From Candidatus Abyssobacteria bacterium SURF_5 (GTDB lineage: Bacteria > Abyssobacteria > SURF-5), in contig QZKU01000138.1 in assembly GCA_003598085.1 (NCBI GenBank), positions 1 through 16,880 of the forward strand: a stretch of 16,880 nt of DNA. Direction: 5' to 3'. The position numbers and the translations under genes are program-made. This document shows positions 1 through 13,323 of the stretch, in pieces; the stretch's first letter is position 1; the number at the start of each line of letters is the position of its first letter. The notes under the pieces are model-generated. The model saw nothing but the letters and a program-made list of their open reading frames with translations. It was not told the origin of the DNA and did no database searches.

Positions 1-114
1 ATACCCTCTGCGACATTGCTCTATTCCTCTTTCACCATAAAAACCCTGTCTTTGTGCCCTTTCACTCACTTCCGAATGTCGGGTTGCGGAATCGCTGCCG
101 GAACGGTTCGCCCG

Positions 115-144
115 TTGACTGCCTCTTTCAACATATGGTAAAAT
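115..144 (+). promoter_or_regulatory. sigma-70-type promoter of the sensor kinase operon
   Basis: A TTGACT hexamer at 115-120 and TAAAAT at 139-144 are separated by 18 bp, close to the housekeeping consensus. The predicted transcript starts near 151. This rules out kinase starts at 54 or 135 and supports the ATG at 195. A 5-bp hairpin (AACGG, loop, CCGTT) at 102-116 overlaps the first bases of the -35 box and may be the end of an upstream terminator or an operator. Confidence 0.6.
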
Positions 145-194
145 ACACACATAATTGGGTGGCTTTCTTGAATAAATCCCCGGGAACATATCGT

Positions 195-2252
195 ATGTAT
201 TCGCGGGCGCGGAATCCGCTTGTCCTGCTCTTGACGGTTGTTCTTGTCATCTCGAATATTTCGGCAGCGCCGGCTGCGGACGAAGCGGGAACTCTCTCGC
301 GGAGAACCCCGAGCAAGCTGATCATTGCGTCGCATTCCAATTATCCCCCCTATGAATATTACGATCATTTGAAGAACAGATTTGCCGGATTCAATGTGGA
401 GATTCTGGATGCGCTCGCGAAGGAGATGGGCGTCTCGGTCGAGTACCGGCGATTGAGCAAACTTGAAGGTCTTGCGGCTCTGCGTGAAGGGACCGTCAAC
501 GGCGTCTTGGGCATTGCTTACAGCATCGAGCGCGACGATTCATTCGATTTCACGAGTCCACTCTGCACGATTTCGGACGCGATTTTTGTGCGCGGAGACG
601 TGCAGGATATTAACAGCGTGATCGATCTGGAAAACCGCACGGTGGCGGTCGATCGCGGCGATTTTATCGGCGAGGTGCTCCAAAAAGGCAAACGCGTCCA
701 CATTGTGGTGAACGATTCGTATGAGAGCGCGCTTAGGATGCTGGATCGCGGCGATGTTGCCGCGTTTGCGGGGAATCAGCTGACGGCGCAGTACCTGGTC
801 AACAGGCTGGGCCTGCGCAACATCAATATTGTGGGGGCGCCAATCCATCAGGTTGGCTATTGCATTGCGGTTCAAGAGGGCAATCATGTCCTTGTCTCAT
901 CGCTGGAGAAAGCACTGAATGTCTTGAAGGAGAACGGCGAGTACGACCGGATTTTCGGGCGCTGGTTCGGAAGGGATTTGCGGAGACACTCGCCGCTCAG
1001 GCAGTTCATCTTCCTGTCGCTCGGACTTGTAGTTGCGGTGCTGGGTTTCGCGGGATGGATGGTAAACCGCAGGCTCAGGCGCAAAGTGGAGCTCAGCGCG
1101 AAGGAGTTGGCCGAGAGCAGGACGCGCTTTCAGCGGAAAGCCGACGAATATATTTCTTTGTTCGAAGGCGCGAATGACGCCATTTTCATTACGGATCCGA
1201 TCGACGGCCGATTCCTCGACGTCAACAAGAAAGCCGAAGAATTGACCGGCTACAATCGAAGTGAACTGCTGCAGCTGGGCATGCGCGACATTCATCTGCC
1301 GCGCGACGCCGCGCGTGTGGACAAGAGGATAGCCCAAATAGTAGCCGAGGGCTCCGCCAGTTTTGACGATGCGCCGTTTTTGCGGAAAGACGGTTCGGTC
1401 GGCCTGGTCGACATCAGCGCGAGCCTCATTGAATACTCGGGGCGCAAGGTATGTCAGAGCTTCCTGAGAGACGTGACGGAGCGGCGCCTGCTCGAGCGCC
1501 AGCTGGTGCAAACGGAGAAGCTGGCTTCCGTCGGCACGTTTACCGCCGGCCTCGCGCACGAGATTCGCAACCCGCTGAATTCTGTCAATCTGCAGTTGCT
1601 GTTGCTCGAGCGGCGTATCAGGGATGGCTCGAGAGACTACGAATCGGAGTCGATGCAGTTGATCAACATCGTTCGGGAAGAGGTATCGCGCCTCGATAAT
1701 TTGGTGACGGAATTTTTGTTTTTCGCAAAGCCGCTGAACCTGGACTGTCACCCGACCAACCTGCACCGCACGCTGGATGATGTCTTCGCACTGTTTCACG
1801 TCCGTATGACGCAGAACTCGATCTCGCTCGAGCGCAATTATATGGACAACCTTCCGTTGCTCTCGCTCGATGCGGAGAAAATGAAGCAGGCGTTCATTAA
1901 CGTCGTGCAGAATGCGATTGAGGCAATGCCGCTCGGCGGCATATTGAAGGTAACAACGCAGGAGACGCAAAGGCGGGTTATCCTGAACATAGAAGATACG
2001 GGAGACGGCATACCCGAAGAGGATTTGGACAAGGTATTCGAGGTTTTCTATTCGAGAAAAGAGACGGGAACGGGGCTAGGCTTGCCCATCTCTCTGCATA
2101 TTATTGAAATGCATGGCGGCACCATCGAAATCCAGAGCAAGCGCGATCATGGCACGACGTGTACGATTACGCTGCCGGTGGGTCCCGCCAAATATCAGCC
2201 TCTGAAGAGGGAGAATTCTTTCGGTGCGTCGAGCTACCTTACTCGTAGTTGA
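195..2252 (+). CDS. membrane sensor histidine kinase: periplasmic SBP_bac_3 domain, PAS, HisKA, HATPase
   Basis: This is a 685-residue sensor of the NtrB-like class that probably phosphorylates the regulator encoded next. From the ATG at 195 it begins with a Sec signal peptide (about 1-27, ending near AAPA). A family-3 solute-binding domain (about 41-260) follows, then one membrane segment (about 271-289), a PAS domain (about 316-430), the H-box with His455 in AHEIRNP, the N-box (Asn569/573), the G1 box DTGDGIP and the G2 box GTGLGLP. All catalytic motifs are intact. The frame stays open upstream to a GTG at 54, but the promoter at 115-144 and the signal peptide favour 195; the Shine-Dalgarno there is weak (GGGA, about 9 nt away). 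In amino-acid-binding relatives an Arg and an Asp hold the ligand. The Arg is present (in ERDD), but the usual C-lobe Asp region reads AFAGN, so the ligand may differ. The ligand is unknown. Confidence 0.9.
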   Translation: MYSRARNPLVLLLTVVLVISNISAAPAADEAGTLSRRTPSKLIIASHSNYPPYEYYDHLKNRFAGFNVEILDALAKEMGVSVEYRRLSKLEGLAALREGTVNGVLGIAYSIERDDSFDFTSPLCTISDAIFVRGDVQDINSVIDLENRTVAVDRGDFIGEVLQKGKRVHIVVNDSYESALRMLDRGDVAAFAGNQLTAQYLVNRLGLRNINIVGAPIHQVGYCIAVQEGNHVLVSSLEKALNVLKENGEYDRIFGRWFGRDLRRHSPLRQFIFLSLGLVVAVLGFAGWMVNRRLRRKVELSAKELAESRTRFQRKADEYISLFEGANDAIFITDPIDGRFLDVNKKAEELTGYNRSELLQLGMRDIHLPRDAARVDKRIAQIVAEGSASFDDAPFLRKDGSVGLVDISASLIEYSGRKVCQSFLRDVTERRLLERQLVQTEKLASVGTFTAGLAHEIRNPLNSVNLQLLLLERRIRDGSRDYESESMQLINIVREEVSRLDNLVTEFLFFAKPLNLDCHPTNLHRTLDDVFALFHVRMTQNSISLERNYMDNLPLLSLDAEKMKQAFINVVQNAIEAMPLGGILKVTTQETQRRVILNIEDTGDGIPEEDLDKVFEVFYSRKETGTGLGLPISLHIIEMHGGTIEIQSKRDHGTTCTITLPVGPAKYQPLKRENSFGASSYLTRS

Positions 2253-3567
2253 TGACGAGAAAAACACGCGGGAAGCGCTTTCAAAAATTCTGACTGAAGA
2301 CGGCTACCATGTCTTGACCGCAGCCGACGGCTATCAGGCGATTGAACTCGTGGGCAGGGAGCTCCCGGATCTCATTCTGGCCGACTTGAAGATGCCGGGA
2401 ATGGACGGAATTGAGCTGCTCTCGCGGACCCGGCTCAAAGGTTTTGATACCCCGTTTGTCATGATGACGGCATATGGGACCGTGGAGAGCGCCGTTGAAG
2501 CGATGAAAAAGGGCGCAGAAGACTATCTGACGAAGCCGGTCAACATCGAGGAACTCGAGCTTCAGATAAAGAGAATTCTGGCCCACCGCAACCTGGTGCA
2601 GGAGGCGAAAAATCTCCGGGAGAGATTGCGGGAGAAATACAAATACGAAAATATCATCGGCAATAGTCCGGCAATGCAGGCGATCTTCAAGACCATTGAG
2701 CAAGTCGCTCCCAGCCGGGCCACGATCCTTATCACCGGGGAAAGCGGTACGGGAAAGGAATTGATTGCATCGGCCATCCACCAAAATGGGCCGCGCGCAG
2801 ACAAGCCGTACGTGAAGGTAACCTGCAGCGCTCTCTCAGAGAATCTGCTGGAGAGCGAATTGTTCGGTCACGAGAAGGGGGCCTTTACCGGCGCGGTATC
2901 GACCCGCCAGGGGCGATTCGAGATCGCCGACGGCGGGACGATTCTGCTCGACGAAATCGGTGAAATCAGCCTTTCGACTCAGGTCAAGTTGCTCGGGTTC
3001 CTGCAGGATAGGACGTTCGAGCGCGTGGGCGGAAACAGAACGTTTACGGTTGATGTCCGGCTGATCGCGGCGACCAACAGAGATCTGGAGAAGGCGGTGG
3101 CCGAAGGAACTTTTCGAAAAGACCTGTACTACCGCCTCAACGTTATTACGATAAAGATGCCTCCACTGCGCGAGAAGATCTCAGACATCCCCGCGCTGGT
3201 GGATCACTTCACCATGAAGTACGCGAAGGAAAACGACAAGCCGGTCAGGGGTCTGTCTGCGGATGCGCTCGCCGCCATCATGTCCTATGATTGGCCGGGG
3301 AACGTGCGGGAACTGGAAAACATGATCGAGCGGGCCGTAGTCATGTGTAATGAGCCGCTGATCGGCCGCCAGCATTTTCCCATTCCCGCGGGAGTCGACC
3401 CTGCGGACGGTCATTCAGTACCGCCGATTCCGGGGTCCTCGCTGGAAGAGATCGAGAAGTACGCAATCCAGAGAACGCTCGAATCAGTGAGCGGTAATCG
3501 GACTCGAGCGGCTGAAATTTTGAAAATCAGCCTCCGAAAAATCCAGTACAAACTCAAGGAATTCTGA
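2224..3567 (+). CDS. NtrC-family sigma-54-dependent response regulator
   Basis: A 447-residue activator of sigma-54 promoters. It has a receiver domain (about 5-120) with phospho-acceptor Asp54 and the acidic DDE cluster near residue 10. The AAA+ domain (about 143-375) has Walker A GESGTGKE (172-179), the sigma-54-contacting GAFTGA loop (219-224), Walker B LLDE (241-244) and an R-finger region. A Fis-type helix-turn-helix closes the protein (about 405-445, ending QYKLKEF). The GTG start at 2224 lies 29 bases inside the kinase gene, with an AGAGGGAG ribosome site about 9 nt upstream, so translation is probably coupled. All motifs for ATP-driven open-complex formation are present. Its targets are not visible directly; a sigma-54-like site at 7967 is one candidate in this window. 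Confident family call; no specific gene name is justified. Confidence 0.95.
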
Positions 3568-4600: not shown

Positions 4601-4879
4601 CGGAAATGGTCAACAATGAAGGGTCCAGTCAGGATTCCAGGTCCCAGAATCCCGCACATTCGCATCTATCCCCACATTCCATTATAATGTCATCCGAAGA
4701 AGTCGTTATGGCGACTGCCGCAAGCGAAGGGGACTGGCCCCATTTGCGGAATTCACGCCCTTTTGAATTCGTGGAAAGGCGCCGGTCCCCGGAGCAAAAG
4801 CCAGTCGCTCAGTCGTCGGACACATTCGCATTGTTGCAGTCGGTCAGGATTTCAGAATGACCGCTCCGGAGGCAGGCCA
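4601..4879. other. intergenic region between cysE promoter and EFR1 gene
   Basis: No credible gene was seen. A perfect TATAAT lies at 4683-4688 on the plus strand but has no good -35 box, so it is only a weak candidate promoter for the downstream gene. Small inverted repeats occur: GGATTC/GAATCC at 4632-4652 and AGTCG/CGACT near 4700-4715. CAGTCG recurs three times between about 4800 and 4845. The plus-strand open frame of about 104 codons here has no ribosome site and no family resemblance. Confidence 0.35.
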
Positions 4880-5794
4880 ATGAAGAGTTTGATCATTTGT
4901 TTTTCGCAGACCGGCAATACCAGGAAAACGGCCGAACGTATCCGCTTGGGGATTATGAAGGTCAGCGGCCATTGCGAATTGATCAATTTTCGGGATGTCG
5001 AAGCGCATCGACTGGAAGAGTATGAGCTGGTCGGGCTGGGATGTCCGGTTTTCTATTATCAGGAGCCGTTCAATATCCGCGATTTCTTGCGGAACCTGCC
5101 TCCCCAAGCTGGCCGGCAGTGGTTCGTGTTCTGCACACATGGGTCGGTGATGGGGAACGCCCTCAACCTGGTGATTGGGCGCCTGCGGGAAAAGGGGGCT
5201 CTTGTGATCGGCTTCCACGACACCTACGCTGATGGCACGCTTCCGTTTTATCCGTATCCCACCTTGACCACCGGGCATCCGGATGAACTCGATCTGAAGG
5301 AAGCCGAGGAATTCGGCGTGGCCGTTGCGGAGAGGAGCCGGCGAGTCAGCGAAGGCGTCACAAGCCTGATTCCCAGTCCTGACGAGGTTCCGGAGGATTG
5401 GGTGCGGACGGCGGAGTTCCTGAGCCTTGAATTTCTGGGGCAGTCAATGCCGAAGCTGACTATCAATCCCGATAGATGCACGCACTGTGGCACGTGCGCA
5501 AGCGAATGTCCGGTGAGCGGAATTGACACCGAGGCAGAGCCTCCTCGAATTCAGCAGCCGTGTATTTACTGCTACTACTGCGCGAAAATCTGCCCGACTC
5601 TTGCCATAGAAGCTGACTGGGAGCAATTGGTTCAGATGGCGCCACAGAATTACGCCCGTTATCGAGAAGCGCTTGATGACGCGGTGGCCAAGGGGAAATT
5701 CCGGTGGCTGGTTTCGCCCGACTCGATGGATTTTGGGAATCCTCTCTACAAACAGAGAGAGAAAGAAATGAAAACTGCACACGGCGAAGCGTAA
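4880..5794 (+). CDS. EFR1-type flavodoxin-like / two-[4Fe-4S] ferredoxin fusion
   Basis: A 304-residue soluble electron-transfer protein. The flavodoxin-like N-terminal part (about 1-155) has the FMN phosphate loop SQTGNT (9-14). A bacterial ferredoxin domain (about 190-245) follows with two complete CxxCxxCxxxCP motifs at Cys200/203/206/210 and Cys228/231/234/238, enough for two [4Fe-4S] clusters. The ATG at 4880 is preceded by GGAGG with a 7-nt gap, so the open frame extending upstream is not coding. Proteins of this build are annotated as EFR1 family and occur mainly in anaerobes; their redox partners are mostly unknown. The C-terminal 60 residues are charged and helical with no motif I recognise. 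It stands alone between cysE (divergent) and the ParA-pair (convergent, 46-bp gap), so context does not reveal the partner. Confidence 0.88.
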   Translation: MKSLIICFSQTGNTRKTAERIRLGIMKVSGHCELINFRDVEAHRLEEYELVGLGCPVFYYQEPFNIRDFLRNLPPQAGRQWFVFCTHGSVMGNALNLVIGRLREKGALVIGFHDTYADGTLPFYPYPTLTTGHPDELDLKEAEEFGVAVAERSRRVSEGVTSLIPSPDEVPEDWVRTAEFLSLEFLGQSMPKLTINPDRCTHCGTCASECPVSGIDTEAEPPRIQQPCIYCYYCAKICPTLAIEADWEQLVQMAPQNYARYREALDDAVAKGKFRWLVSPDSMDFGNPLYKQREKEMKTAHGEA

Positions 5795-5840: not shown

Positions 5841-6578
5841 TCACTTTTCAGGCTTCTCTTCCCGGACGTGCAACCGGATTCGGGTTGTCTTCGAAGAGCG
5901 ATGTTTCTCGTCGGAAACGTCGGATCTGAGAGTGACGGTTGCATCGATTATGGAATAGCCGTCGAGCAAATATCGCAGTAATTCCTCCCGCAGGGCCTCT
6001 TCGGCCGTCAGATCTCCATACGGCTCGATCGTTACAGTTTTCTCTTGAACAGTCCGCTCTTCGACCGTATGGGGTGACTCGCGGACATACTCGGCGCTCA
6101 GCGTGCTGCCGTGGCTGCGCAGGATTTCCTCGATCTGGCCGGAGGTGATACGCATGAAGTAGACACAAGTGTGCCCCTGATGTAATGAAATCGCTTCCAG
6201 GGGTTTTACCTTGTGCTTGAAATGATCGACCGAATAGATACGGCACTGGAACGGCTGGCCCGCCCTGGCAATAAGATGTGCACAGGATGCACAGTTTTCC
6301 TTTCTGCGCATGGGCTGAAGCGAGCGCTGAGGGCTCGCGGTACTATTGTCGGAGAGCATAGGAGGGTTTTCATGTGCCTGGTGACCAGCCGTCCTTGCCG
6401 TATCAACTTCATCCGCCTCGGCCGCGGAAAGAAAATAGTGAGAAATATCCTTGAATCCTTTTTCCGGAGTCTTCCGATGGCGCCTGCCCATCGCCGGTAC
6501 CGTCGCTGTTGCCTGTTCTGAAGCTCGTCTAGCAGAAAGAAGCCCTCCCTCGAACGGTTCGGGGGATGGTTTTGTCAA
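5841..6578 (-). CDS. unrecognised Cys4 protein, coupled partner of the ParA-CBM fusion
   Basis: I do not recognise this 245-residue protein. Residues 1-90 look low-complexity and polar, with a basic patch [10 protein letters not shown] (31-40) followed by a short predicted helix, KDISHYFLS (43-51). A cysteine set (Cys96, Cys99, Cys112, Cys138, with nearby His) could bind zinc or a metal cluster. Residues 170-240 look like an alpha/beta domain ending in [12 protein letters not shown]. No signal peptide or membrane segment is seen. The TTG start at 6578 overlaps the ParA stop (TTGA), with GAGG about 4 nt upstream, so it should be made together with ParA. ParA partners often carry a short basic N-terminal peptide that stimulates the ATPase, and the basic patch fits that pattern, but this is inference. 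A later ATG (residue 30) is a possible alternative start. Confidence 0.75.
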
Positions 6579-7621
6579 TCCACCTCAATGACGGAGTTCT
6601 TTTGCCCGAATTCCCCGACAACCTGTGCAGGGTTCTCCGGGTCTTCCTTCCAGTCGCCATCGACAATAAACTTGTATTGATATTTGCCCGGCTGGAGCGG
6701 CAAACATAAACTCCATTTTCCGCTTCCCTCCCTCTTCAGCCGGTATTTGTCTGAGGCGTCCCACCCGTTGAAATTGCCGGCCACCTTCACATCGGCCGCG
6801 TTCTCGTCAAAATAGGAGAAAAGCACGCGCGCCGGAAACGGGGCGGGAGTATCAAACAAGTCCAGATCGCTCGACAGCTCGTGGGCGAGTTCCGCAAAAT
6901 CCTCATGGGCCGTCGAATATGGAGCAAATTTGCGTATCGGCAGTCCGCCCATCGCGCCTTCGGCCAGCTTGATGGTCCTGTGGATGAGCGTCTTGCAGAG
7001 GATATCCCCGAAATTCTCCGAAAGTAAAGAAAGGATTTTGCGGGCGAAAATGGTCCGCGGCTCATACATATTGACCACAATTCTCGTGCGAATATGGTGC
7101 GAGGTCCGGGTGCAGATCACATTGATCGTCTCGAGCAGCTTCTGCAGCCCTTGCAGAGAGAATCGGCTCATGTCGACCGGGATCAGCGCCACTTGAGCGG
7201 CCCTCAGAGCGTTCATGGTTAATATTCCGACGCTCGGGGGGGCATCAATAATGCAGAAATCGAAATGAGGAATTGCCTCGATAAGGACGTCTCGCAGCCG
7301 GTCTTCTCTTCCTCTTTTTCCGCTCAGTTGCTGCTCGAGCGCGCTGAGCATTATGTTGGAAGGCGCCACAGCCAAATTTTCATCAACCTGGACCTGCACC
7401 TGCCGGAAACAGCCCGCGTCCCCTTCTTCACTCATCGTGTCATAGATGGTCTTTTCCAACCGGTCAGCATCTATCCCCAAAGCGGCGCCGGAATGTCCTT
7501 GAGGATCCAGGTCCACCAATAGAACCCTCTCGCCGCCCGCAGCCAGACATGCAGCCAGATTTACCGCAATAGTGGTCTTCCCGCAGCCGCCTTTCTGGTT
7601 CACCACCGTCAGGGTCTTCAT
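6575..7621 (-). CDS. ParA-type ATPase with C-terminal AMPK-beta-like glycogen-binding (CBM48) domain
   Basis: A 348-residue fusion. Residues 1-255 form a complete small ParA/Soj ATPase: deviant Walker A KGGCGKTT with signature Lys10 and Lys15, Walker A' region VDLDPQGH, Walker B CIIDAPPS, and the late HRTIKLAEG segment that in Soj carries a DNA-contacting Arg. Residues about 265-348 match the glycogen-binding domain of AMPK beta. By motif alignment the sugar-contacting residues are kept: Trp287 in NFNGW, Lys317 in YQYKF, Trp324 in VDGDW and Asn342 in KNSVIEV. ATG 7621 is chosen because ParA proteins start MKTLTV-like next to the P-loop and GGGAG lies 9 nt upstream; ATG 7639 and GTG 7660 are alternatives. 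No HTH precedes the ATPase and no parB lies nearby, arguing against an ordinary chromosome-partition locus. It heads a two-gene operon. The granule-positioning role is inferred. Confidence 0.93.
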
Positions 7622-7704
7622 TGCTTCATGCTCCCGCATCTCGGCTCCCACTGAAATCACCCCATTCGTGGATGATTATCCGCTTCTCCGTGGTTTTCGC
7701 GGTA

Positions 7705-8057: not shown

Positions 8058-9602
8058 ATGATTCAAGAAGTTCAGATCAAGAAATTACTGATGCGATCCT
8101 CAAAACTGCCTACAATTCCCGCTGTGGCGAGACAACTGCTCTCTATTAGTGAATGGGAAACCGCCGATCTGAATCAGGTGGCCGAGATAATCAGCGCCGA
8201 CATCTCCCTTGTCTCCAGAATTCTGAGGATTGTTAACTCTCCTTTTTATGGTTTTCCCCATAAAATCAGCACAATCTCGCAAGCATTGGTGGTGCTTGGT
8301 GTCCGTGCAACCCGGTCATTGACGCTGAGTTTCTCGCTTTTACAGATGTCGTCGGCGGGTGGGGGTGGCAAATTCAATTATGCCGGTTTCTGGACTCGCT
8401 CGTTAAACACGGCCGTCGCGGCGCGCGAGTTTGCGCAGGCGGCGGGGTTGCGAGACATGGAGGAAGCTTTTGTGTCGGGCCTTCTTCAGGATATTGGGGT
8501 TCTGGTAATTGGGCATTGCGCCCCCAGGGAATACGCTCTCATCTCAAGAGAATCGCCCGACCAACTGGCTCCGCCATTGGCGGTGGAGAGAAGACATCTC
8601 GGGACTGACCACGTGGAACTCGCAAAACACCTGTTTGAGGAATGGAAACTCCCTCATTCACTTCTGATCCCCGTCCTGTACCACCACGAGCCACAGGGCC
8701 TGACCTCGACCGATCCGCAGACGATGCTCTCGATAAACATCCAATATTTTGCGGGGAGGATGGGAGAGTGGCTGTACGCGACCCACAAGAATGGGAATTC
8801 ATTCGACGGGTTAAGCGAGTTGGCCCTCGAGTATTTCGGGATTAGTCAGCTTGAGTTTGAGGCTTTGATGCGGCGGATCGATTGCCGCGTGAGCGAGATG
8901 TCGGAACTCTTTGAGGTGAATGACACCCGCCCCACCACATATGCAAACCTGCTCGAACAGGCGAACCAGGAGCTTGGTCGTATTGTCCATGAACAGGAGC
9001 GGTTGCTGAGGGATTTGGAGGCGGCAAAACTGGAGGCAAAGAAGCTGGCCGAACAGTTGCGGGAAGCGAACCTGAAGCTGGTGAGCGAATCGAGAAAAGA
9101 CGGCCTCACAGACCTGGCAAATCGGCGCCATTGTGAAGAATTTCTGGATAAAGAACTCAAACGTTCATTGCGCTACGGCCACCCGATCTCCGTCCTCTTC
9201 ATAGATATCGACAATTTCAAGTCGATCAACGACCGATGGGGACATCTCGCGGGAGACGCCAATATCAAGCAGTTCGCTGGAATCCTGAAGGAGTCCGTTC
9301 GTGCAAACGACCTCGTGGCGCGCTATGGGGGAGAGGAATTTCTTGTGATACTCGTGGAGAGCTCGAGCTCCGAGGCTGTTGTCGCCGCCGAACGCATTCG
9401 GCAGGCCGTTGAACAGACTCCTTTTTTCCGGGAGGATTCCGCTGTTCCCCTGTTCCTCACCGCAAGCATCGGTATTGCGAGCTGGATGCCTGGGGACGAA
9501 CAGATTGATATGCGAGCACTGTTGGGAAAGGCCGATGAGGCCATGTATCAGGCAAAGCGGGCCGGAAAAAACTGCGTCTCCGTCCTCGATGCCAATTCGT
9601 AG
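8058..9602 (+). CDS. HDOD-domain diguanylate cyclase (HDOD-GGDEF)
   Basis: A 514-residue cytoplasmic signalling protein predicted to make c-di-GMP from two GTP. The HDOD domain (about 12-215) has GLLQDIG (141-147) and a YHHEP motif near 208-212, but not the metal-binding HD-GYP signature, so phosphodiesterase activity is unlikely. A coiled coil (about 295-345) links to the GGDEF domain (about 346-512), which has LTDLANRR, metal-binding DIDNFKSIND, active-site GGEEF (424-428) and the inhibitory RxxD site RAND (415-418) five residues upstream. Everything needed for catalysis and product inhibition is present. The ATG at 8058 follows AGAAGGAAG. The gene is divergent from the ParA-CBM operon and shares its upstream region. 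What the HDOD domain senses is unknown. Confidence 0.93.
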   Translation: MIQEVQIKKLLMRSSKLPTIPAVARQLLSISEWETADLNQVAEIISADISLVSRILRIVNSPFYGFPHKISTISQALVVLGVRATRSLTLSFSLLQMSSAGGGGKFNYAGFWTRSLNTAVAAREFAQAAGLRDMEEAFVSGLLQDIGVLVIGHCAPREYALISRESPDQLAPPLAVERRHLGTDHVELAKHLFEEWKLPHSLLIPVLYHHEPQGLTSTDPQTMLSINIQYFAGRMGEWLYATHKNGNSFDGLSELALEYFGISQLEFEALMRRIDCRVSEMSELFEVNDTRPTTYANLLEQANQELGRIVHEQERLLRDLEAAKLEAKKLAEQLREANLKLVSESRKDGLTDLANRRHCEEFLDKELKRSLRYGHPISVLFIDIDNFKSINDRWGHLAGDANIKQFAGILKESVRANDLVARYGGEEFLVILVESSSSEAVVAAERIRQAVEQTPFFREDSAVPLFLTASIGIASWMPGDEQIDMRALLGKADEAMYQAKRAGKNCVSVLDANS

Positions 9603-9631: not shown

Positions 9632-10318
9632 TTAAAGGAATCTGCGCCGGCGAAACCCGCTCCGCCTCCGGAGAACGAGTAAGAGGAGGGCTCCCGCGAA
9701 GAATCCGCCGATGTGCGCGAACCAGGCGATCCCGCGCGCATCAACCGGTCCCGCCATCAAGGTTGGCAGGGCAAACAGAATCTGCATGAAAATGTAAAAG
9801 CCGAGGAACAGGAAGGCCGGCACCTCGACAAAGTAGAAGAACAGGAACACCGGAATCGCCGCAAGCACACGCGCCCGCGGGAAGAGGAGAAAGTATGCCC
9901 CCAGAACTCCCGAAACCGCGCCGCTTGCGCCGATCACGGGGATCGTTGAGCCGGGATGCGTAAAGATATGGCTGAAAGTCGCCGCCAGACCGGTCAGAAG
10001 ATAGAAGAAAACGAACTTGCCGTGACCGAAGTAATCCTCGACGTTATTCCCGAAGATCCATAAGAAAAGCATATTGCCGACCAGATGCAAAATCCCCCCA
10101 TGCATGAACATGCTTGTGAAAAGCGAGGTGAATTGATTCGGCGCCAGCGGCTCCGCCACGAATGTTTTGGGCACCAGGGCCAGGCTCATGACCACCTGCT
10201 CGAAATGTTGAGGCCCCTGGGAAATCTGATAGAAGAAAACCGCCACGTTCGCAGCAATCAGCAAGAGCGTGACCGCTGGAAAAAGGTCCGCAGGATTCCT
10301 GTCCTTGATAGGGATCAT
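9632..10318 (-). CDS. rhomboid-family intramembrane serine protease
   Basis: A 228-residue membrane protein with about six hydrophobic segments. The catalytic dyad is Ser132 in GASG (130-133) and His202 in AHIGGF (201-206). The oxyanion-side HGGILHLVGN motif (73-82) with Asn82 is also present, so it should be active. Rhomboids cut single-pass membrane proteins inside the bilayer; its substrate cannot be told from sequence. The C-terminus is Arg-rich (RRRSGFRRRRFL), consistent with a cytoplasmic tail. The ATG at 10318 overlaps the mannosidase stop (ATGA), and its AGGA is too close for a normal ribosome site, so translation probably depends on reinitiation after the mannosidase. The gene converges on the HDOD-GGDEF gene with a 29-bp gap. 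Confidence 0.92.
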   Translation of the reverse strand: MIPIKDRNPADLFPAVTLLLIAANVAVFFYQISQGPQHFEQVVMSLALVPKTFVAEPLAPNQFTSLFTSMFMHGGILHLVGNMLFLWIFGNNVEDYFGHGKFVFFYLLTGLAATFSHIFTHPGSTIPVIGASGAVSGVLGAYFLLFPRARVLAAIPVFLFFYFVEVPAFLFLGFYIFMQILFALPTLMAGPVDARGIAWFAHIGGFFAGALLLLVLRRRSGFRRRRFL

Positions 10319-13128
10319 TTCCTGTTCACCCGGATGGTTTTGATCTCGCCGGGCCGAAAGGAGATTCCTTTCCTGCTCAGGCTCAGCGGCCCTTGGGATA
10401 ATTGCCTCTCGAGAAAGTTCACCTCATGCGCGCCGTCCAACGGTTTCCAGAGGATCACGCGGGTGCGCTGAGAGGATTCTGTTCCATTGTACATCCGTAC
10501 GAGCAGCGAATCCTTCTGCCGAGAGCGTTCAATCGCGCTGATGATGATGTTGGAATTGTCCGCCGCAACCAGTGAAGCTCTGTTCCTCAGCTTTCCATTG
10601 TGGCGATTGGTTATGGCGGCGATGGGCGGGAAAGCATACGCATGCGCGGCGTGCGCAATCCCTGCATCAACAAAATTCCCGGCATAGCTGAGAAACGCGA
10701 ATTCGAACGAATGCCGTCCCTGTGATTGAGCGCCCGGCGTCTTGAACTGAGGGCCGGCGCCTCCCGGCCTGCAGAAAAGGTCATCTCTTGACAGCCAGCC
10801 GATGGAGCGGATCAGGGTGAGGGCGAGCGCCGAAATTTTCTCGTTGAAGAGGGCCTCGATTTCGGGGATGCCCCGATTGAAAAGAGCAAACCCGGTTGAT
10901 CCCCCCTCGAGACAGGTAAAGCATTTCTGCGGACCGGTGCCGACCGGTTTTTCCAGGAATCCTTCGGCCGGTTCGACCGAAACCGGCCGGCGGACTGTGC
11001 CGAAGGTCGTCTCCACGACGGCGTCGCTCGCTTTAAACGGGGCATGAAACCATACGCGGAGCCGGTGATCCTCGCTTTTGTTTTCCAATGAGACTCGAAA
11101 ATCGATCCGCTTTGTGTCCCTATATAAGGATATTTCGGTCTTGATCCTTGTCTCAACCGCCGCCGTCGATCGGGCATCACGTTCCGGCGTCAGCCGCTCC
11201 GGAATCCGGTACACCGCCTCGATCCGCACAGCAGCTCGCACCGGCCCGTTTTCAATGACCGACACGGCGACCGGCCCGACCGGGGCAGCGACCGGTTGGG
11301 CGCCCTGAACCTCATCAAAATTGTATGTGTCGCCCCGGTCACCTTCATCGATGAAGTGGAGGCATCGAGCGTATTCGATCGCCAGATCCTTGTCGAGAAT
11401 ATCTATCGTGCCGTCACTGTTGATCGTTATCCGGTAATGTTGGTTTTCCAGCTTCTCCTTTGAAGCCTCTAAACCACCGCTTGCGCTGCCGCCCGCGCTC
11501 TCGCCAGAGAGAGAGTACAGCGTGAGTCCGTGTGGAGCCAGTTCTTTCGCCGGGAAACGAATGGTCGTTCTGGCGCCGGAGATTCCCCTGATCTTCACCG
11601 TTGCGATTGTCGGATCTTCGAGCGCGGCCAACAATTCCTTGCGTCGTTTATCGAAATCAATTTCGCCGGCGGGCGCTCGCCCCATGATCAGGTTCAGGTG
11701 CAGAATATTGCCGTCCTTTCGCCAGAGGACATTGTTGATGTAATACCCGATCAGCTCGCGGTCTTCCATTCCTGAGACCATCGAGCGCACCATCTCCGGC
11801 GTCTCTTCGGTCTGCACAAAAAGCTCGCGCTCCCCGACCGTTTTCTGCAGGGGGATGATTGACCCATCGGCATCTTTCACGGATTGAATGAAGTCGGGCT
11901 CCTCAAGATCGACTTCAACGTCAACAAGCTGAAAGCGCGCCGCGGTAGGATTGAACACACAGAGGACGGGTGAATCCGCCGGAGCGTGACGGCTATCCAC
12001 CTGGCTTGCAAGGAATGACATGCAGTCTTTTTGCAGCGCTTTTCCCAACTGTTCGACGCGGTCGAATCGCGTTTCCATTTCTTCATGGACTTTGTCGACG
12101 CTGCAGCCGCAGATGCTGTCGTGTGGCTGGTTTTGGAGAATCAATCGCCATGCATGTTCGATGAAACTGCCGTGAGGCCGGGTATCTCCGCACAAGCCGG
12201 CCCAAGCCGACAACGGCTCAACATATCTTTCCAGCAGCCGGCAGCACTCAAAAGCGCGCTGCTTCTGCCTGATCCTGGTGGAGGTTACCCCGGGAAGCAG
12301 CGGCGCTCGCTCCGGGCTTCGAAATTCGCCGCGATGAACCGACAAAGAGCGCGCCTGTTTTCTGGCCTGTTGAATGAATGCATCGAGCGAGCCGATCTCG
12401 GCCGTCACTCCCTCCAGCCTGCGCACCGCCTTCTCCAACTGTTCTGGCAGGCCCTCCTGCGGCTCGAGATGATCGAGCCCGTTCATGATCAGCATGCTGC
12501 GAATCGAGCAGTATGGCTCCAATTTCTGGATGACCCTCCGCAGGCTGTCGCTTAACTGCTTTGGGTTGAGAGGCAGGAATGCTCCGTTGCCATAGGAAGT
12601 GGCGAGGTAGACGGTGAATAGTTGCGTTCCGTCCGGCGACTCCCACAGAAATTGCGTTTCGGTAACGGTCCGGCCGACTCCTCTCCACACCACCGCCGAA
12701 CGAATCCCGAATCCCGCCAGTACCTGCGGCATCTGGGCAATATGCCCGAATTGGTCGGGCAGGTAGCCGACCGAAGAAGCCTTCCCGTATTTTTTCGCTG
12801 AGCGGATTCCCATCCTCAGGTTTCTTATGAGCGACTCGCCGGTGACGAGGAACTCGTCGGGCTGCACATACCACGGGCCGATCAGGATTCTTTCCTGGCG
12901 GATTAGCTTTTCCAGCCGCTTGCGATTTTCCGGTCGTATTGCGAGATAATCGTCGAGGAGAATTGTCTGCCCGTCCAGCTCAAAGCAGGTGAACGCGCGA
13001 TCGTTCTCCAGGACCTCCAAGAGATGATCGACCATCGAGACGAGCCGTTTTCGGAATCGCTCGAACGGCATATACCATTCCCGATCCCAATGAGTGTGGG
13101 GAACAACAACCAGGTGCCTCAGGTTCAT
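10315..13128 (-). CDS. GH38 alpha-mannosidase family glycoside hydrolase (MngB-like)
   Basis: A 937-residue glycosidase, about the usual family size. The N-terminal catalytic domain has zinc ligands His13 and Asp15 in HTHWDREW, nucleophile Asp125 in GYLPDQFGH, and the third ligand region His336 in PHDSICGCSVDKVHEE, followed by the C-terminal beta domains. The motif wording is close to E. coli MngB, which hydrolyses mannosylglycerate derivatives, but no PTS or glycerate gene is nearby, so the substrate stays at alpha-mannosides in general. The ATG at 13128 is chosen because GGAGG lies 6 nt upstream; the in-frame extension to 13173 lacks a comparable site. No signal peptide is seen, so it acts in the cytoplasm. 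It overlaps the rhomboid gene by four bases. Confidence 0.92.
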   Translation of the reverse strand: MNLRHLVVVPHTHWDREWYMPFERFRKRLVSMVDHLLEVLENDRAFTCFELDGQTILLDDYLAIRPENRKRLEKLIRQERILIGPWYVQPDEFLVTGESLIRNLRMGIRSAKKYGKASSVGYLPDQFGHIAQMPQVLAGFGIRSAVVWRGVGRTVTETQFLWESPDGTQLFTVYLATSYGNGAFLPLNPKQLSDSLRRVIQKLEPYCSIRSMLIMNGLDHLEPQEGLPEQLEKAVRRLEGVTAEIGSLDAFIQQARKQARSLSVHRGEFRSPERAPLLPGVTSTRIRQKQRAFECCRLLERYVEPLSAWAGLCGDTRPHGSFIEHAWRLILQNQPHDSICGCSVDKVHEEMETRFDRVEQLGKALQKDCMSFLASQVDSRHAPADSPVLCVFNPTAARFQLVDVEVDLEEPDFIQSVKDADGSIIPLQKTVGERELFVQTEETPEMVRSMVSGMEDRELIGYYINNVLWRKDGNILHLNLIMGRAPAGEIDFDKRRKELLAALEDPTIATVKIRGISGARTTIRFPAKELAPHGLTLYSLSGESAGGSASGGLEASKEKLENQHYRITINSDGTIDILDKDLAIEYARCLHFIDEGDRGDTYNFDEVQGAQPVAAPVGPVAVSVIENGPVRAAVRIEAVYRIPERLTPERDARSTAAVETRIKTEISLYRDTKRIDFRVSLENKSEDHRLRVWFHAPFKASDAVVETTFGTVRRPVSVEPAEGFLEKPVGTGPQKCFTCLEGGSTGFALFNRGIPEIEALFNEKISALALTLIRSIGWLSRDDLFCRPGGAGPQFKTPGAQSQGRHSFEFAFLSYAGNFVDAGIAHAAHAYAFPPIAAITNRHNGKLRNRASLVAADNSNIIISAIERSRQKDSLLVRMYNGTESSQRTRVILWKPLDGAHEVNFLERQLSQGPLSLSRKGISFRPGEIKTIRVNRK

Positions 13129-13323
13129 GCGGATCCTCCCAGGGAGATGAGACTGAATAGTTTCTCGCTGCAAACCGGGTGGAGCGGGACACTGCTCAAA
13201 AAGCGGATTGGTGCAGTTCCGCGAGCCCGGGTTCGCCTCGTGAGATTGGCGAGGGACAGAACTATCTCCACCTTTTGCGCCGCGGGTTCGCCTGAAAGAC
13301 GGGCCCGCCTGTTCGCCTGATCA
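13129..13323. repeat. intergenic region with three AGGCGAAC repeats
   Basis: On the minus strand AGGCGAAC occurs three times, at 13318-13311, 13293-13286 and 13238-13231. The latter two extend to the exact 11-mer AGGCGAACCCG, 55 bp apart. No promoter or terminator is obvious. Short open frames crossing it have no ribosome site. The repeats may be part of a dispersed element or a processing site between the radical SAM and mannosidase genes. Confidence 0.45.

Follow-up and report, generated by a model that had tools for sequence, protein, structure and literature searches.

The locus and its genes

The window, by which we mean the whole 16,880 nucleotide stretch of Candidatus Abyssobacteria bacterium SURF_5 DNA that was analyzed (contig QZKU01000138.1), contains on its minus strand a gene that encodes a ParA-type ATPase joined to a glycogen-binding type domain, and a second gene that follows it in the same operon. 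The main features are as follows.

6575–7621, minus strand: ParA-CBM48 fusion gene, 348 amino acids, ATG at 7621
6872–7621, minus strand: ParA/Soj-type ATPase domain, residues 1–250 (AAA_31 match, E = 8.6e-49; Soj-like fold)
7571–7594, minus strand: deviant Walker A motif KGGCGKTT, residues 10–17, read directly
6830–6871, minus strand: linker, residues 251–264, from the alignment
6578–6829, minus strand: AMPK-beta/CBM48 glycogen-binding domain, residues 265–348 (AMPK1_CBM match and alignment with 1z0m)
5841–6491, minus strand: partner gene, 216 amino acids from an ATG at 6491, next in the operon and directly downstream of the fusion gene

An earlier note on this DNA had described a ParA ATPase fused without a frame break to an AMPK-beta/CBM48 domain at 6575–7621, and both the open-frame check and the Pfam matches agree with that description; the strand it implied was wrong, however, as the gene runs from 7621 to 6575 on the minus strand. 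A plus-strand reading of 6575–7621 is ruled out by stops that interrupt that register. The minus-strand frame is unbroken through both domains, the two halves have similar GC3 (0.656 in the ParA half and 0.674 in the CBM half), and an alternative GTG start at 7660 would add 13 residues. Full-length orthologs that are 62–64% identical are present in two sister genera of the window's family, and because of these copies and 77 more fusion loci we dismiss chance or an assembly artefact as the origin of the fusion. An AlphaFold2 model made with a 40-sequence family alignment as input has a mean pLDDT of 92.9. The linker reaches up to about 160 residues in other aligned fusions. Visual inspection of the sequence shows no signal peptide, which would leave cytoplasmic glucan as the sole obvious ligand.

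The surrounding genes include an ordinary two-component pair at 3–3567 (a periplasmic-binding-domain/PAS sensor kinase followed by an NtrC-type sigma-54 response regulator) and, convergent with the partner gene at 4763–5794, a flavodoxin-like domain fused to a 4Fe-4S ferredoxin domain (EFR1-like) that appears unrelated. Rhomboid and GH38 genes lie at 9632–13173, separated from the fusion by an opposite-strand HDOD-GGDEF gene (8058–9602). In one sister genus (L003, 66–3214) the order GH38 (alpha-mannosidase), rhomboid (protease), fusion, partner occupies a single strand, so the GH38-rhomboid-fusion gene order is partly conserved between the two loci.

The ATPase half

The Pfam AAA_31 match spans fusion residues 1–177, and the closest solved structures by sequence, over residues of about 4–250, are ParA/Soj proteins (E values of 1e-39 to 1e-35), to which this half is 34–37% identical. 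A structure search with the ParA half of the model matched Soj with Z scores of 36–39 (9a6n, Z 39.4 and rmsd 1.2 over 250 residues; 2bej, Z 36.0 and rmsd 1.5 over 242). The Walker A lysines K10 and K15 and the second-motif aspartates D37 and D39 are present in 83 of the 83 sequences having that end. Soj contacts DNA through arginines R189 and R218 (Soj numbering); the window fusion has R189 and K218 at these positions, and in the alignment position 189 is R in 76/81 fusions and position 218 is K or R in 64/81. Judged from its sequence, the ParA half keeps both the catalytic signatures and the DNA-contact residues, and retention of these basic residues would argue for nucleoid rather than membrane binding.

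The glycogen-binding half and its sugar pocket

Pfam AMPK1_CBM matches residues 272–348 with an E value of 6.8e-16 and 58.7 bits, against a curated cut-off of 26.8, and the closest solved structure to the tail by sequence is the AMPK beta-1 glycogen-binding domain 1z0m (E = 2.7e-9). The domain's pLDDT in the AlphaFold2 model is about 83–97 by block; since the ParA half took all of the Foldseek rows, the CBM half was assessed by sequence only. The four residues expected to hold the sugar are listed below.

6761–6763, minus strand: pocket Trp287, Trp in 81/81 fusions
6671–6673, minus strand: pocket Lys317, K or R in 81/81 fusions
6650–6652, minus strand: pocket Trp324, Trp in 81/81 fusions
6596–6598, minus strand: pocket Asn342, N or D in 79/80 fusions

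In the 1z0m alignment W287, K317, W324 and N342 fall on FNNW, YKF, DGQW and VNN, respectively, so the proposal in the earlier note of an intact Trp/Trp/Lys/Asn pocket holds, with all four on AMPK beta-1 contact residues. That note would have abandoned its reading had the Trp/Lys pocket been lost across the family, and no such loss is seen: both tryptophans and a K or R are universal among the 81 fusions, whose median pairwise identity is 38%, and the four pocket positions rank among the most conserved of the domain. Because the scan that gathered them orders matches by likeness to the window query, there is some bias toward conserved copies. Such conservation is what sugar binding predicts, and it makes the domain a candidate glucan binder.

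The partner gene

The downstream partner gene, which the earlier note had overlooked, is the strongest clue to mechanism. Two of its features bear on this.

6426–6485, minus strand: partner N-terminal motif, a proposed ATPase-activating peptide, from motif enrichment downstream of fusions
6165–6293, minus strand: partner C67, C70, C83 and C109, invariant in a five-sequence alignment

An alternative partner start, TTG at 6578 with GAGGTG just upstream, would give a 245-residue protein whose gene overlaps the fusion stop. The window partner starts with a basic peptide and DISHYFLS; the consensus among partners is K..xRGLEDISHLFLS. Of the 61 loci with a same-strand gene downstream, 35 have this motif at the start of that gene, versus 20 of 555 genes lying over 1.5 kb from the fusion. 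The enrichment is about 16-fold, though the motif pattern behind the count was loose and the gene calling crude. LG[KR]G[LIF], of the LGRGL/LGKGL type, occurs in eight partners (for example MGKKRLGRGFNDISDIFLS and MKKDKRLGKGLEDISHLFLS), one of which (L093) sits beside a CBM-less ParA; genuine ParBs downstream of ordinary ParAs start MKKKALGKGLDALI, MKNKVLGRGLEALI and similar, with LGKGLDAL/LGRGLEAL. With its 25 residues the peptide is too small to yield a significant database match, so this ParB likeness is a side-by-side reading that carries no E value. Pfam and NCBIfam profile searches of the window partner gave no match and no ParB-type homology, and searches with real partners against Pfam and with a composite of the N-terminal peptide against the PDB gave nothing meaningful (one PRDM9 zinc-finger row is a chance match).

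Beyond the motif the partner bodies vary. Window-type partner genes, with Cys-rich bodies, adjoin the fusion also in L003, L004, L018 and L019, and their four cysteines could possibly form a metal site; the AlphaFold model of the window partner has low confidence (pLDDT 41.7) and a disordered N-terminus. Other partners have degenerate MinD/ParA-like folds (L021, minD_arch 4.5e-12; L036, L043 and L044) or an ExeA-like AAA body (L030, AAA_22). In L060 the partner (1614–2969) combines the motif with a MerR-like HTH, a coiled coil, one transmembrane helix and the C-terminal domain of RodZ (RodZ_C), which suggests a tie to the cell-shape machinery in its lineage. Many Planctomycetota fusions have no recognisable partner next door. 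A shared N-terminal peptide on varied bodies is the pattern described for activators of ParA/MinD-family ATPases, in which a short N-terminal activator peptide is found on unrelated bodies (PMC7993993, PMC10241942).

Distribution and phylogeny

The fusion is not an isolated case. The earlier note had proposed a profile search for others; many were found, in many phyla, by a collection scan and by whole-genome HMM searches. The collection scan was seeded on ParA peptides and retained the best 80 matches to the window query; 77 of these carry the CBM, so there are at least 77 further full-length fusions, although the seeding and the best-80 selection favor full-length fusions and prevalence is not derivable from this number. 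Hosts among the listed matches include Omnitrophota, Planctomycetota/Phycisphaerae, Desulfobacterota, Zixibacteria, Latescibacterota, Eisenbacteria, Krumholzibacteriota, Rokubacteria, Acidobacteria, Gammaproteobacteria and others. One record (L047) is labelled as a Methanomassiliicoccales archaeon, yet has a Desulfobacterota-like fusion and GlgB; probably the bin is mislabelled or a mixture. The whole-genome HMM searches, which give a fairer count of prevalence, found a full-length fusion in about 101 of 146 sampled Omnitrophota genomes (about two thirds), in roughly 13–15 of 238 bacterial genomes from families other than that of the window, and in all three genomes examined of the window's phylum.

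In a tree, 11 chromosomal-type (Soj) ParAs form a clade with support of 1.0, most of them encoded directly upstream of a genuine ParB, and the fusion ParAs lie outside it. Two genomes (G001 and G002) hold separate ParAs besides the fusion. Searches of plasmid and phage proteins gave best matches that cover the ParA part only, and the only plasmid DNA similarity is a 135-base ParA match. Three loci (L083, L092 and L093) encode CBM-less ParAs whose downstream genes bear the same N-terminal partner motif; those of L083 and L092 branch beside canonical Soj, and the three may either predate acquisition of the CBM or reflect its later loss.

Glycogen metabolism genes in fusion-carrying genomes

The window's genome encodes two GlgA, four GH57, a GlgB-type enzyme, an alpha-glucan phosphorylase and a GH13 cluster, all away from the fusion. 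A strong GlgA is present in about 43 of 53 fusion genomes, and GlgA or phosphorylase in 50 of the 53; glycogen genes are also present in 12 of 14 control genomes. The exceptions are a Rokubacteria genome, in which other GH13 enzymes were found, the genome of L047, where GlgB is nevertheless right beside the fusion, and a MAG (G086), the only fusion genome with no detected GlgA, phosphorylase, GH13 or GH57; its fusion (L082) is one of the two that have lost the pocket Asn. Within Omnitrophota the excess of GlgA among fusion carriers is modest: 94 of 101 have it, compared with 28 of 37 genomes lacking the fusion (p = 0.013 with phylogeny ignored). Planctomycetota fusion genomes lack a strong GlgA; most of those tested have phosphorylase and/or GH57.

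Glycogen genes lie near the fusion at about 8 of roughly 80 loci, and one clade accounts for five of these. GlgB is adjacent in L047 and nearby in L060, and five related Omnitrophota loci (L026, L033, L041, L059 and L064) share the order GH57, single-TM membrane protein, fusion. The single-TM protein of those five loci starts with a look-alike of the partner motif, IYDYLANTYISN. The earlier note had asked whether glycogen genes accompany the fusion and had regarded homologs in genomes free of them as counting against a glycogen role. The accompaniment is indeed nearly general and G086 is the sole genome of the latter kind, but because glycogen genes are common in bacteria, the controls included, co-occurrence supports a glucan role weakly and hardly discriminates.

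Relationship to known systems

The nearest relative of residues 1–250 in both sequence and fold is Soj/ParA of chromosomal ParABS systems, which shares with the fusion the deviant Walker A motif, the DNA-contact basic residues and a downstream partner with a basic N-terminal peptide. The fusion differs from it in having the glycogen-binding C-terminal domain, DPQGH and KGGCGKT variants and a separate clade, and from chromosomal and plasmid ParABS in a partner without any ParB domain (Pfam, NCBIfam). McdA/McdB would work in a like manner, with a ParA-type ATPase, a small unrelated partner and non-DNA cargo; McdA is about 21% identical to the ParA half (fold Z 31.5, rmsd 2.0 over 245 residues). 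Unlike in that system, the fusion ATPase itself bears the cargo-type domain and its partner lies outside the described families, and no carboxysome genes are present within the window. AMPK beta has the same CBM48 domain, with all four named contact residues retained in the fusion, although on a kinase scaffold rather than a ParA ATPase. BcsQ, a ParA/MinD-like protein of cellulose biosynthesis, has no sugar domain; Pfam CBP_BcsQ also matches the fusion (54 bits), but the fusion falls far under the NCBIfam TIGR03371 equivalog cut-off (88.7 vs 157.85 bits), and no bcs genes were seen in the window. The PhaM/PhaF phasins follow the logic that we propose for the fusion, one protein tying a storage polymer to the nucleoid, but have no ATPase switch and bind PHB instead of glucan (PMC13052382).

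The earlier note knew of no described system with this domain order, and the open literature searched likewise contains no description of it; subscription papers and preprints were outside the scope of that search, so novelty is provisional. With the same proviso, the components are known and their combination, distribution and partner motif are new. ParA/MinD ATPases place chromosomes, plasmids, carboxysomes, flagella and chemotaxis clusters, and in the published literature searched we found no storage polysaccharide among their cargoes. Carboxysomes, magnetosomes and granules of PHB and polyphosphate are discussed in a 2025 review on how bacteria position their organelles; glycogen is absent from it (PMC13052382).

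Possible functions of the fusion and its partner

Our preferred reading, which we hold tentatively, is that the fusion and its partner are a ParA-type ATPase/activator pair that tethers or positions cytoplasmic alpha-glucan. A more specific and more speculative form of it is a ParA-type partition system with storage polysaccharide as its cargo, in which granules would be tethered to the nucleoid and released by the activator. On binding ATP the ParA-CBM protein would form a dimer that, like Soj, attaches to the nucleoid without sequence specificity. Its C-terminal CBM48 would at the same time hold glycogen chains, so that the protein would tether stored glycogen to the chromosome under the control of an ATP switch. 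The basic/DISHYFLS peptide at the partner's N-terminus would then enter the ParA dimer, trigger ATP hydrolysis and free the tether, so that glycogen granules might be spread over the nucleoid or inherited with it. Four elements of this scheme are inferences from the features above: that the protein binds glucan, that it binds the nucleoid, that the partner activates it, and what the pair achieves in the cell. Counted in its favor are the Soj-like ATPase, the invariant pocket and the motif-bearing downstream gene, the ParA clade apart from Soj and the separate ParAs of G001 and G002, the GH57 order in five Omnitrophota loci and the GlgB genes near the L047 and L060 fusions, and the full glycogen toolkit of the window's genome. 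Against it we count the architecture, which is atypical in having the cargo-type domain on the ATPase itself, since the cargo link of known ParA systems is on the partner; the lineage-varied partner bodies, which fit signaling or varied anchoring equally; and the partnerless Planctomycetota fusions, the sparse glycogen linkage and G086.

The same anatomy would serve a glycogen-gated switch, a close rival that we consider possible if rather doubtful, in which the CBM would sense glycogen or malto-oligosaccharide and thereby alter ATP binding, dimerisation or partner contact; the output, via the partner, would be regulatory (gene expression, division or metabolism), as with AMPK-beta, FleN or BcsQ. 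The HTH, RodZ_C, AAA_22 and degenerate MinD bodies of the partners resemble signaling or adaptor modules more than one cargo adaptor, MinD-like regulators such as FleN are structurally related to the ParA half, and glycogen is reported to inhibit AMPK through this very domain (PMC2642990). The best-supported reading is nonetheless the tether, as the fusion retains DNA-contact residues of the kind found in nucleoid-bound ParAs and its ParA half is closer to Soj than to FleN or BcsQ in both sequence and fold.

Some enzymes have CBM48 modules that lack sugar binding, and the domain could in principle have become a protein-docking or structural module on a protein that positions some other cargo. 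The lack of a strong GlgA in Planctomycetota fusion genomes would fit this, but most of those tested retain phosphorylase and/or GH57, and invariant exposed aromatics with a K/R and an N/D across 81 divergent fusions fit sugar binding and not docking, so we regard it as unlikely. Very improbable is an ordinary chromosome or plasmid partition ParA with an incidental domain: the identity of the ParA half to Soj favors it, but there is no ParB gene beside the fusion, separate ParAs are present in G001 and G002, the fusion ParAs fall in a distinct clade, the best plasmid and phage matches span only the ParA part, and the domain pair has been maintained across phyla.

If storage polysaccharide is indeed the cargo of such a partition system, this would be the first known machinery that positions glycogen or secures its inheritance in bacteria. 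The fusion and its partner make up a family of two genes, with a sugar pocket that is open to testing, found in many mostly uncultured phyla and in most sampled Omnitrophota, and through it the distribution of glycogen between daughter cells, or its sensing by the machinery that organises the cell, becomes directly testable.
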